From NCBI GenBank assembly GCA_029862745.1, contig JAOTWS010000001.1:1-64000 (forward strand): DNA of 64,000 nucleotides, in the 5' to 3' direction. Shown here in pieces: positions 309 to 7,035 of this stretch. Source of the DNA: Nitrosopumilus sp. (GTDB lineage Archaea > Thermoproteota > Nitrososphaeria > Nitrososphaerales > Nitrosopumilaceae). The first letter of the stretch is position 1. Every line of letters starts with the position of its first letter. The position numbers and the translations under genes are program-made. Under the pieces are notes generated by a model. It worked only from the letters and a program-made list of their open reading frames with translations, searched no databases and had not been told where the DNA came from.

Positions 309-794
309 TCAACAATTTCTAATACACATAACAACTGTATCTGTTGTTAATAGATCTTTTTGTGGTCGGATAATTATTTTGTATTGTTTTTCTTCGTCAA
401 ATGGAATATCAAACTGTGTTGTTCTCTCAATTGGTTTGTTTGGCTCTAGAGTAGGGCAATTTTACATTGTTGATGACAAAGAACAAAAACATGAAGCAGT
501 ATTTGGAGAATTTTCATCAAAAGATTTGTTTTTAGCTCCTGAAATGATTGTTTTTTCATTACTGATGTTTTTTGCAGTAATTCCTATTTTTACAAATGTG
601 TTTTCTGGTGGAACTTCTTTACTTCCTTTATGAGTTCCTTCAAAAGTAATAGTGTACTCGACTGGTCCTACGATGACTGGCTTTCCTCCGACAGCTTCAA
701 TATAGTTTGTTGTATATTGTGTATACATGTAATTTGCAAAAACTATTGATGCTATTATGGCCCCAATCACAATAATTATACCCATTCCTGCCAT
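309..794 (-). pseudogene. Membrane-anchored DUF4352-like protein, disrupted by an internal inversion
   Basis: The frame starts at 794 with an N-terminal hydrophobic anchor (residues 2-25), then VGPVEYTITFEGTHKGSKEV and VKIGITAKNIS. These resemble the extracytoplasmic Ig-like DUF4352 proteins common in Nitrosopumilales. At about residue 85 the sequence becomes nonsense and meets a TAA at 462-464. Beyond that stop, in the same frame, a typical C-terminus resumes (EPNKPIERTTQFDIPF, ending at a TGA at 309-311). The missing middle (GQFYIVDDKEQKHEAV and on) is present but encoded on the opposite strand, so the piece between has been flipped. As written the gene gives a 110-residue truncated protein; restored it would be 161 residues. 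The family name is from memory; the inversion is read directly. Confidence 0.8.
449..537. other. Inverted segment inside the DUF4352-like gene
   Basis: Read on the plus strand this stretch encodes GQFYIVDDKEQKHEAV followed by FGEFSSKDLFL, exactly the type of residues missing from the surrounding minus-strand gene. Reversing it joins TTTCAGGAG to TAGGGCAATTT and TTGTTTTTA to GAGCCAAAC, restoring an open frame with ISG-VGQFY and DLFL-EPNKP junctions. The left edge sits in the palindrome CTCTAGAG (444-451) and the right edge in AGCTCC (534-539), so only a few bases of inverted homology are visible. Ends are accurate to about 5 bases. No recombinase gene is adjacent. Confidence 0.8.
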
Positions 795-3789: not shown

Positions 3790-4270
3790 ACAAGATTTTA
3801 CCTTGATAAAAGTGATTTAATCCTTGCTGTATATTCACAAAATAGAATAATCGTTATGCTGGCACTGATAAATCTAACATCCAGATATTCCACTCGTAGG
3901 TATTTTTCAATCAAAATTTCCAACTAATCTATCCAGACATGGATCTGTATATGAAGAGAGGGTTGATTCATGAGCAGCACCTTTTGATTCCCATCTTTTG
4001 TGATCGTCTTGTCCATTGCTTGAATCGAATCACAAAAAGACCATTAAATAAATTTGACAAATTTGGATTGTTTATAGTGTAATTCTATTTAAAAAAAAAT
4101 AATTCCTTTGAGCATAAAATAAGCAACATATCTAGTCAAACACTGGACAAAAATAATAGCCATCAAATTTCTAAGATTGTGGTAGTGGAGGTGTTGTATT
4201 TTCTTAAAAAAAGATAAATCTGTTTTACCATACAATAACCCTAAAAACAATAATTCTTACACAATGTGTA
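3790..4270. other. Intergenic region with a gene remnant
   Basis: Contains the likely tRNA-Asn promoter (TTTTATC about 20-25 bases before the mature 5' end) and the DUF2299-like remnant at 3979-4039. Otherwise no open frame or RNA is recognised. Confidence 0.5.
3979..4039 (-). pseudogene. Degenerate DUF2299-like fragment
   Basis: About 20 codons read FCDSIQAMDKTITKDGNQKV, close to the FCYSIQAISKIITEDGKQKV stretch of the intact gene at 2459-2908; the DNA is also clearly alignable. Flanking bases give neither start nor continuation, so this is the remnant of a duplicated or replaced copy, about 180 bp upstream of tRNA-Asn. Confidence 0.75.
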
Positions 4271-5023
4271 TTGGAATCTAATACCATCAATCCAAAGATT
4301 TTGTTATTAATTTTGTCACTGGCAATTACATTTCAAATCATGCTTTGGCTAAATTTTGACATTAATGATGAATTTGACATGATTGATTTGTTATATCTTT
4401 TGGGCCTGATCTCTTGTTTTACGGCAAGTTTTGCAGTTTCAAAAAAATTTGGAAGCTCAAAGATTTTTGGGAAGGCATATATGATTTTGGGGTTAGCGTT
4501 TGTATCCTTTTTCGTTGGAGAAACACTCTATTTGTATTTGAATATGCTAGGAGAAACTCCATATCCTGCTATTCATGTTGATTTATTTTTTTTTATGTTT
4601 TACCCATTGGTTACATTATACTTGATCATAAACATAAGATTCTTCAGACCCACGCTAAGTTTGAAACACAAGATTTTGCTAGTGATAATTTTTCCTAGCT
4701 CTGTTCTTTTCTATTCTTATATCACTTATTCTGCTGATGCAATAGATTCCTTTGAATATTTTTATGGTTTGATTTTTATGATCTTTGCATCAGTCCCACT
4801 CTCTTTTTCAATATTGGGTGCAACCATTTTCAATCAGACAGTACTGAGTTCAATTTGGCGACTTTTGACACTAGGGATTGCAATAAGCACAATTGCTGAT
4901 ATTTTATATTATTCTCTAGAAATTATTGGAGAATATGATAGCATGCATCCTGTCAATACACTTTGGATGATTTCATACATGATAATATTTTATGCTCTGT
5001 ACAAACATATCAAAACGTTCTAA
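4271..5023 (+). CDS. Polytopic membrane protein, about seven helices
   Basis: 250 residues with about seven hydrophobic segments (roughly 8-27, 38-56, 68-90, 102-122, 132-152, 162-185, 193-213, with a last one at 226-245). Short charged loops include SKKFGSSK and RPTLSLKHK. The layout recalls the sensor half of 7TM signalling proteins, but there is no kinase or other output domain. The only in-frame initiator is TTG at 4271; an ATG at 4264 is out of frame and stops after five codons. Function unknown. Confidence 0.65.
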   Translation: MESNTINPKILLLILSLAITFQIMLWLNFDINDEFDMIDLLYLLGLISCFTASFAVSKKFGSSKIFGKAYMILGLAFVSFFVGETLYLYLNMLGETPYPAIHVDLFFFMFYPLVTLYLIINIRFFRPTLSLKHKILLVIIFPSSVLFYSYITYSADAIDSFEYFYGLIFMIFASVPLSFSILGATIFNQTVLSSIWRLLTLGIAISTIADILYYSLEIIGEYDSMHPVNTLWMISYMIIFYALYKHIKTF

Positions 5024-5114
5024 AAAATCTTGATGCCACTTTCAATTATGTTATTATATTATTTTTGAAAATTCATTATCTGCTACTTTTATTTTTCATA
5101 CGATCTTGATTTTG

Positions 5115-5756
5115 TCACTTTTCTACAAAATTCATGTACATTGGGTGGTTCTGAATGATTTGACTTTGCTTTAAAAAGTCATTGTTTATTTGTACTTTGA
5201 GATCTAATTTCCCTCCAACTACGTTAACCTGCATGTTCTCAAATAATGAAACATATTTGTTCATCTTTCGCCCATCACTTGTAAGAGAATATCCTATCTC
5301 AGTTAGCAATCCGTTATTTGTTAATTCTTTGATCATTCTATATCCTGTAGATTTTGTTAAATTACACATTTTCACAATATCGCTAATCAGAGTTGGTTCT
5401 TTTAGTAGTAAATTATTCAGAATTTTACGCTTATCAGAGTCTGAAAACGATGCCATTATAAGATTAGCAAGTGACTGATCATGAATTGTTATCCATGTTT
5501 TATTTTTTGATGGTGCTGGTTCTATTGATATAAAATTATTCAGAAATTTTTTTTCGATCTCATCTGCCCCTTCTTGAAAGAGCTCTCTTAGCGTAGCATC
5601 CATCTTGCTAAAATCACGTATAGATTCTAAGACTGTAATTTTGTATCTGTCTTGTAATCTACTCTCAATCTTTTTGTATACTGGCTCGCCAAGATTATCT
5701 TTGATTACTGAATGTAAGGAATCTGCAAGTAAATTATCAAGTCCAGACGACAACAA
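5115..5756 (-). CDS. Winged-helix transcriptional regulator with thaumarchaeal N-terminal domain
   Basis: 213 residues. Residues 1-75 form an alpha-helical domain (DNLLADSLHSVIKDNLGEPV, then VLESIRDFSK and LRELFQEGADEIEKKFL) like the output domain found in many Nitrosopumilus regulators (NitrOD5; name from memory). Residues 110-185 are an ArsR/MarR-like winged helix: LLKEPTLISDIVKMCNLTKS followed by the recognition helix TGYRMIKELTNNGLL and a wing (YSLTSDGRKMNKYV). The C-terminal 30 residues form an additional strand-rich piece. It stands alone, with a 200-base AT-rich promoter region upstream; the ligand is not predictable. Confidence 0.75.
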   Translation of the reverse strand: MLSSGLDNLLADSLHSVIKDNLGEPVYKKIESRLQDRYKITVLESIRDFSKMDATLRELFQEGADEIEKKFLNNFISIEPAPSKNKTWITIHDQSLANLIMASFSDSDKRKILNNLLLKEPTLISDIVKMCNLTKSTGYRMIKELTNNGLLTEIGYSLTSDGRKMNKYVSLFENMQVNVVGGKLDLKVQINNDFLKQSQIIQNHPMYMNFVEK

Positions 5757-5957
5757 ATTAATTAGACGTTTCTTACTAATATACCATTATGAGAATACCG
5801 TTTACGTATTGAATAAATTATTATAATGTTGTTCTTACCCTGTGACAATATATACGTCTTAATATATTTAAGATACTATAATTTATAGCAAAAATGATCA
5901 AATTTTAATCAAAATGATAGATCATCTTTTATATTAGTTAGTCACTATTCTTACAGA

Positions 5958-6182
5958 ATGAGAACAGTAAATGATTATTGTGAACAGATACGTGAAGAAA
6001 TTATCAATGTTAGTATAAAACGTGGTATGAAACGTCAATGCACTGAAATGGGATGCAGAGTAAACTTTAGGGATGATCCTGGGTTTGATGTTAAATTACT
6101 TTTCAAAGATCTTTCAAAACATAATGCTCTGAATTGGAAAGACGTGGCAGGGTTACCCTGGATATTTGATGAGGACTGGTGA
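5958..6182 (+). CDS. Small hypothetical protein (74 aa)
   Basis: 74 residues, soluble, with an amphipathic helical start (MRTVNDYCEQIREEIINVSI), a basic stretch KRGMKRQCTEMGC and a tryptophan-rich end (NWKDVAGLPWIFDEDW). No family recognised. Its TGA overlaps the GTG start of the next small gene, which indicates translational coupling. Confidence 0.6.
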   Translation: MRTVNDYCEQIREEIINVSIKRGMKRQCTEMGCRVNFRDDPGFDVKLLFKDLSKHNALNWKDVAGLPWIFDEDW

Positions 6183-6289
6183 GATTGGCAAAAAAATATC
6201 AACTAGTTGCACGATATGATGATCATATTGTTGTGATGGACAAAAAAGGAATTCCTGTTGCAATGGATAAAGATGGACACATCATATAA
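6179..6289 (+). CDS. Small hypothetical protein (36 aa), coupled to the upstream gene
   Basis: Starts with GTG inside a GTGA overlap with the stop of 5958-6182 (alternative TTG at 6185). The product includes AKKYQLVARYDDHIVVMDKK and then IPVAMDKDGHII. It alternates beta-strand-like and turn segments, as in a small hairpin fold. The overlap and clean composition support it; no family is recognised. Confidence 0.55.
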   Translation: MRLAKKYQLVARYDDHIVVMDKKGIPVAMDKDGHII

Positions 6290-6744
6290 CAACTGCTTTA
6301 AATGATTTTTTAATACTTTGAATTTGAAGCCTGGTTTATATGGATTCAAGTATCAGAAGGAGTAAAATCCAATGCAGGTTGATAAAAAACGATCACATAT
6401 GGAAATCAAAAAAATTTACTACATTGTGATTTACCAATTAAATTAACCACTGTTTTAATTTCTCAATTTTTTGTACCGGTGAATCTCATTGTTGCATTAA
6501 TAATTAACATTTATGATGACGTTCTAAAGTTCGGAGAAACTCATTTTTTTGTATTTTTATATATTTTTTACATTTTTACTGAATTATATCTTCAACTCTA
6601 GATCCATCAGAACAAATTCTACGTATTAGATCTTTCATTATAATTTTAGATTAGATATTTTATAAGCAATCACCAATTATACATATCCATACTTTTGGAA
6701 ATTTAATGAATTGGCTATAATCATTATGAAATGATTTTGATTTT
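6290..6744. other. Intergenic region, nothing recognised
   Basis: 455 AT-rich bases between a rightward and a leftward unit. It must hold the 3' ends of both units. I see no gene, RNA or strong repeat. Confidence 0.4.
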
Positions 6745-7035
6745 TCATTTATTGAATTTAGCAAAAAATTCTCTAATTTCTTTTGAATGACTCTCAACAA
6801 GTTCTATAATTTCAAGATGCTCCTCTGCTGTAGGTTCTCTTTGATGGACAATTTGAAACGCGCTAAGTGCGGAACCAACCATCTCTCCTACAAAAAAACC
6901 GCATAGAAAATCTCCAATGTTTTCACAATTCCAAGTTTCTCCAATTCTTGGAGAAGCCCCTGCTGATTTATACAACTTTAATGTTTGTTCTATTAAATCA
7001 GTAGTTTGTTTTGAAAATTCAGGATCAAGAGTCAT
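6745..7035 (-). CDS. Conserved small protein after the ribosomal cluster
   Basis: 96 residues, mostly helical. Central motif NCENIGDFLCGFFVGEMVGS followed by FQIVHQREPTAEEHLEII and a charged C-terminal helix ending REFFAKFNK. It follows L6 by 15 bases on the same strand, so it is probably the last gene of the ribosomal operon, where other archaea have L32e and L19e. It has no resemblance to those proteins. Function unknown. Confidence 0.6.
   Translation of the reverse strand: MTLDPEFSKQTTDLIEQTLKLYKSAGASPRIGETWNCENIGDFLCGFFVGEMVGSALSAFQIVHQREPTAEEHLEIIELVESHSKEIREFFAKFNK

Follow-up and report, generated by a model that had tools for sequence, protein, structure and literature searches.

An in-place inversion within a DUF4352 membrane-protein gene of Nitrosopumilus

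Site-specific inversion of DNA needs terminal repeats, typically of 10-20 nt, together with a recombinase, and in one survey of such elements the few archaeal samples yielded no inversion (PMC5903667). Intragenic invertons have been associated with phase variation (Chanin et al., 2024, as cited in PMC11868660). Short inversions are also known as a class of mutation. The microinversions that separate human from chimpanzee are 17-33 bp in length, and each of them has inverted repeats of 3-75 nt on its flanks (PMC8755829). Four-point short-range template switching has been described in great apes (PMC7954356, after Loytynoja and Goldman); copying runs to point 1, continues on the reverse strand from point 2 to point 3, and resumes at point 4.

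We examined a short inverted piece within a gene that lies near the end of a Nitrosopumilus sp. contig (JAOTWS010000001.1, assembly GCA_029862745.1). The whole stretch analysed, positions 1-64,000 of this contig, is termed the window. The inversion resembles the human-chimpanzee microinversions in that it is short, in place and length-neutral, has colinear flanks and is confined to one lineage; it differs from them in its length of approximately 83 bp, in having no edge repeat above chance and in carrying a 2-base scar. It follows the course of a four-point template switch, with all changes attributable to one nearby excursion in which 2 nt are reused and 2 nt are lost. The published switches are from great apes; the present candidate is in an archaeon and shows no microhomology; the literature that we searched contained no archaeal case. 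As in the intragenic invertons summarized in the citing article, a short reversed piece within a gene truncates the product. Unlike site-specific invertons, this piece has no terminal repeats of 10-20 nt, its genome has no recombinase match above cut-off, only one orientation was seen among the relatives, and the part of the gene downstream of the piece has drifted.

We favour, with a probability of roughly 0.8, a single fixed in-place microinversion that converted the gene into a pseudogene, most likely through a template switch. The locus is then a clean and well-defined archaeal example of a known mutation class and a modest curiosity, in which the effect is the loss of one dispensable gene and no new system is involved. 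Gene-calling and alignment programs take inversions of this kind for clusters of substitutions or for plain truncated genes. If sequencing reads confirm the arrangement, such inversions arise in archaea without flanking inverted repeats, in contrast to the primate cases (PMC8755829).

The interrupted gene and its orthologues

The affected gene occupies positions 309-794 of the minus strand and comprises 161 codons plus a stop once its middle piece is turned back. As it stands, the frame runs from an ATG at 794 to a TAA at 462-464 and encodes 110 amino acids; past this TAA the same frame reads as a good C-terminus that ends with a stop at 309-311. The plus strand of the intervening piece reads GQFYIVDDKEQKHEAVFGEFSSKDLFL, which corresponds to residues 87-113 of the orthologues. 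The original prediction, made from the letters alone, had proposed just this arrangement of two good ends, an intervening stop and missing residues supplied by the other strand, and we could reproduce each element. Its claim that a flip restores 161 codons also holds, except for the left edge, which was placed about four bases away. A literal flip of 449-537 misses the register by four bases, with three stops remaining in frame, and 453-537 must be turned back to obtain one clean frame (flips of 454-536 or 455-535 are equivalent to it). The parts of the gene, all on the minus strand, are thus an intact 5′ portion at 540-794 (approximately codons 1-85, with the membrane helix and first β-sandwich strands), the inverted piece at 453-537, within which the inversion has created the premature TAA, a 2-base scar at 453-454, and an untranslated 3′ remnant at 309-452 that holds codons 115-161 and the stop.

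The turned-back protein matches the DUF4352 family (PF11611) with 46.4 bits (E = 6e-12; cut-off 25.9), and the truncated frame as it stands falls below the cut-off with 18.6 bits (E = 0.0024). The orthologue from genome G013 scores 37.5 bits, also above the cut-off, and the match spans 37-144 in the restored frame and in all orthologues. For the closest orthologue, structural modelling (pLDDT 81) predicts an N-terminal helix at residues 3-26 followed by a β sandwich, and its best matches among solved structures are Bacillus subtilis YjhA (3cfu; E = 6.9e-07, TM 0.63) and YcdA (4r4g). The modelled orthologue combines a membrane helix with a β sandwich as in 3cfu; in the present genome the gene is broken. 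The helix and the extracellular type of the sandwich make the label ‘surface protein’ plausible for the predicted fold. In the model, the inverted piece covers the strands at 89-92 and 98-102 and extends to residue 113; another three strands follow the premature stop. With the strands in and after the piece lost, the truncated product would lack half its domain, cut inside the β sandwich.

With the turned-back protein as query, 72 of the 95 genus genomes yielded an orthologue; among the 56 good genomes the figure was 51. Almost every orthologue is intact, present as a single copy and equal in length, and reads ...SGGQFYIVDEKEQKHEAVFGEFSSKDLFLE.LEPNKPIERTTQFD... across the region concerned. When the window was compared with each of five full-length close relatives, the best flip was always 453-537 or its two equivalents, and the flipped gene aligned over 483 bp with no gap, the mismatches decreasing from 96 to 59 for G013 and from 104 to 65 for G030. 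This gap-free alignment to intact orthologues bears out the proposal of an in-place inversion within a membrane-protein gene. The piece is the reverse complement of its orthologous counterpart, is of equal length and lies between colinear flanks. All intact orthologues have the uninverted order; an intact relative in the inverted orientation would have spoken against the proposal, and among the 72 genomes with a match the inverted arrangement was seen only in the window's own. The named contig records included 53 Nitrosopumilus and Nitrosarchaeum relatives and no second genome of the same species. Viral contigs, also searched for this DNA, gave no match.

Three other genomes carry independently damaged copies of the DUF4352 gene. 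G083, a one-contig genome, has lost it through a frameshift near codon 86 (locus L100), and the copies in G112 (L101) and G036 (L102) contain both frameshifts and stops. We considered whether these genomes share the inversion and rejected this, as the breaks there are frameshifts or stops. These other damaged copies indicate that the gene is dispensable in several lineages.

Junctions and a possible mechanism

In gene sense, the relatives read CAGGAG/GGCAATTT...TTTTTAG/AAACTCTAGAG, and the window reads CAGGAG/CTAAAAAC...AATTGCC/CT/ACTCTAGAG, where slashes mark the junctions. The scar falls in codon 114, which is GAA (Glu) in all five closest relatives and GCT (Ala) in the turned-back window. 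If GAA is taken as ancestral, as inferred from all close relatives and as the parse requires, there is exactly one four-point solution that needs no substitutions: 83 nt derive from the opposite strand, AG is used twice and AA is lost. Neither switch point shows microhomology.

The edges of the piece have only AG/CT (2 bp) in common. No close relative has the CT at the edge, and it seems to have been produced by the event itself. The original prediction had placed the edges in ‘tiny inverted homologies’ (CTCTAGAG and AGCTCC), which did not hold up. The inverted-repeat score of the edges was at or below that of random site pairs 84 bp apart (P = 0.21-0.995), and the in-register match of 10 out of 32 positions (P = 0.40) likewise gave no inverted repeat above chance. 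The edges showed no inverted repeats of 3 nt or more of the type that flanks the human-chimpanzee set (PMC8755829); by eye, the inferred ancestral order has a GAG/CTC pair at a distance of three bases from one edge. A Hin-like arrangement with a 2-bp core was also considered and was rejected on the grounds that the half-sites mismatch and that CT is not ancestral.

These observations are consistent with the following course of events. After the lineage had split from its nearest sequenced relatives, the reverse complement of approximately 83 nt within the DUF4352 gene would have taken the place of the original sequence. Most likely, in the course of replication or of break repair, a nascent strand moved briefly onto the opposite strand and returned, so that 83 nt were copied backwards, AG was copied twice and AA was lost, with no net change in length. 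The inversion would have placed a TAA in frame after codon 110, leaving the remainder untranslated and the gene a pseudogene, and the inverted state would then have become fixed in the population. Two staggered breaks with fill-in could yield an equal end product, and the sequence does not separate this route from a template switch.

Loss of constraint and competing explanations

The fragment downstream of the break carries the private changes Q148L, S149L, A154V and V/I156M, at sites that are conserved among 69 intact orthologues. None of the 69 has Leu148, Val154 or Met156, and one has Leu149; more divergent orthologues carry equally many rare residues. Private changes downstream of the break number seven nonsynonymous to one synonymous, where five relatives taken together have 2:10 (Fisher p = 0.0045). 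The comparison concerns few changes clustered in nine codons of a region picked after the data had been seen, and it is weakened by the counting of private changes in place of an ancestral reconstruction. Upstream of the break the counts are 3:3, against 17:15 in the relatives. The downstream pattern is of the kind that a loss of translation would produce. It suggests that the DUF4352 gene has long been inactive, and it supports this reading rather than proving it. The drift of the downstream fragment counts against an assembly error and also against a live switch.

An artefact, in the form of a library chimera or a misassembly near the contig end that conceals an intact gene in the living organism, is unlikely, and it is the alternative that we take most seriously. 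Some 450 bp separate the piece from the contig end, which breaks within an array of 33-bp repeats, where coverage may be poor; the neighbouring RibD_C-like sequence at 929-1403 is also full of stops and frameshifts, and the inversion is present in one genome only. Assemblers join reads by overlap, and the junctions offer 0-2 bp, far too little for such joining, so there must have been molecules with both junctions. A balanced in-place inversion requires two template switches, and the 483-bp gene shows no indel relative to its relatives. Nor is the lost constraint downstream expected from an artefact. Elsewhere on the contig, the other conserved genes compared over 264 kb against G061 are intact, with no other conserved long gene broken internally. 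Sixteen genes were flagged as broken in that comparison; in the long ones inspected, the stop falls within the first codons and precedes the true start, while most of the short ones, part of which were inspected, look like shadow frames. A scan of the same 264 kb against G061, of which about 180 kb (178 kb) was testable, gave no other microinversion with a procedure that detected 27 of 30 planted inversions, and three control scans between relatives (286 kb) gave none.

Recombination offers two further accounts, each of which we regard as very improbable. The original prediction had listed, beside a fixed inversion and an assembly error, a reversible switch for phase variation of a surface protein, seen while OFF. 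The product is membrane-anchored, the inversion leaves the exact place and the length of the piece unchanged, and flipping it back restores the protein except for the Glu-to-Ala change at codon 114. The 2-base scar that causes this change is, however, not what conservative recombination leaves, edges with 2 bp in common score no better than random sites as inverted repeats, and no orthologue in the genus is inverted. A profile search of the genome for serine recombinases (PF00239) gave no match, where the same search found one in 10 of 14 control genomes, and that for tyrosine recombinases (PF00589) gave two partial matches below the cut-off, both on other contigs. Closing a loop of 83 bp is difficult for a recombinase. 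Together with the lost constraint downstream, these results leave the switch unsupported, and a repeat-less intragenic switch of less than 100 bp, working in a thaumarchaeon by an unknown mechanism and seen here in its OFF state, is to our minds scarcely credible. The other account is a conservative inversion by recombination at the 2-bp AG/CT, the CT having arisen earlier through two substitutions. AG...CT does stand at the edges of the turned-back window, which permits three equivalent flips; yet two adjacent substitutions (GAA to GCT) would have had to fall exactly at the later breakpoint, and the two differing bases are AA in all five closest relatives. We consider this account a very long shot. 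Among the readings first offered, the fixed microinversion is thus the best supported, separated from the inverted homologies once attached to it.

Neighbouring features of the window

Positions 1-228 of the minus strand contain the start of a lysine/alanine-rich histone-H1-like protein with the repeat AAPKRKAATRK. The coding sequence of this repeat is a perfect 33-bp tandem repeat, present in 3.8 copies and running into the contig end, and its copy number probably broke the assembly at this point. On the other side of the DUF4352 gene, between it and a DUF2299 gene, positions 929-1406 of the plus strand hold a RibD_C (dihydrofolate-reductase-like) gene that has decayed through several frameshifts and stops. 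It is missing at this place in close relatives, and an intact relative with 53% identity is located in the same genome at C1:122228-122692. Farther along, approximately 2.9 kb between well-conserved blocks (3825-6748) has no match at that place in G061, G013, G030, G096 or G118 and appears from this comparison to be a lineage-specific insertion.
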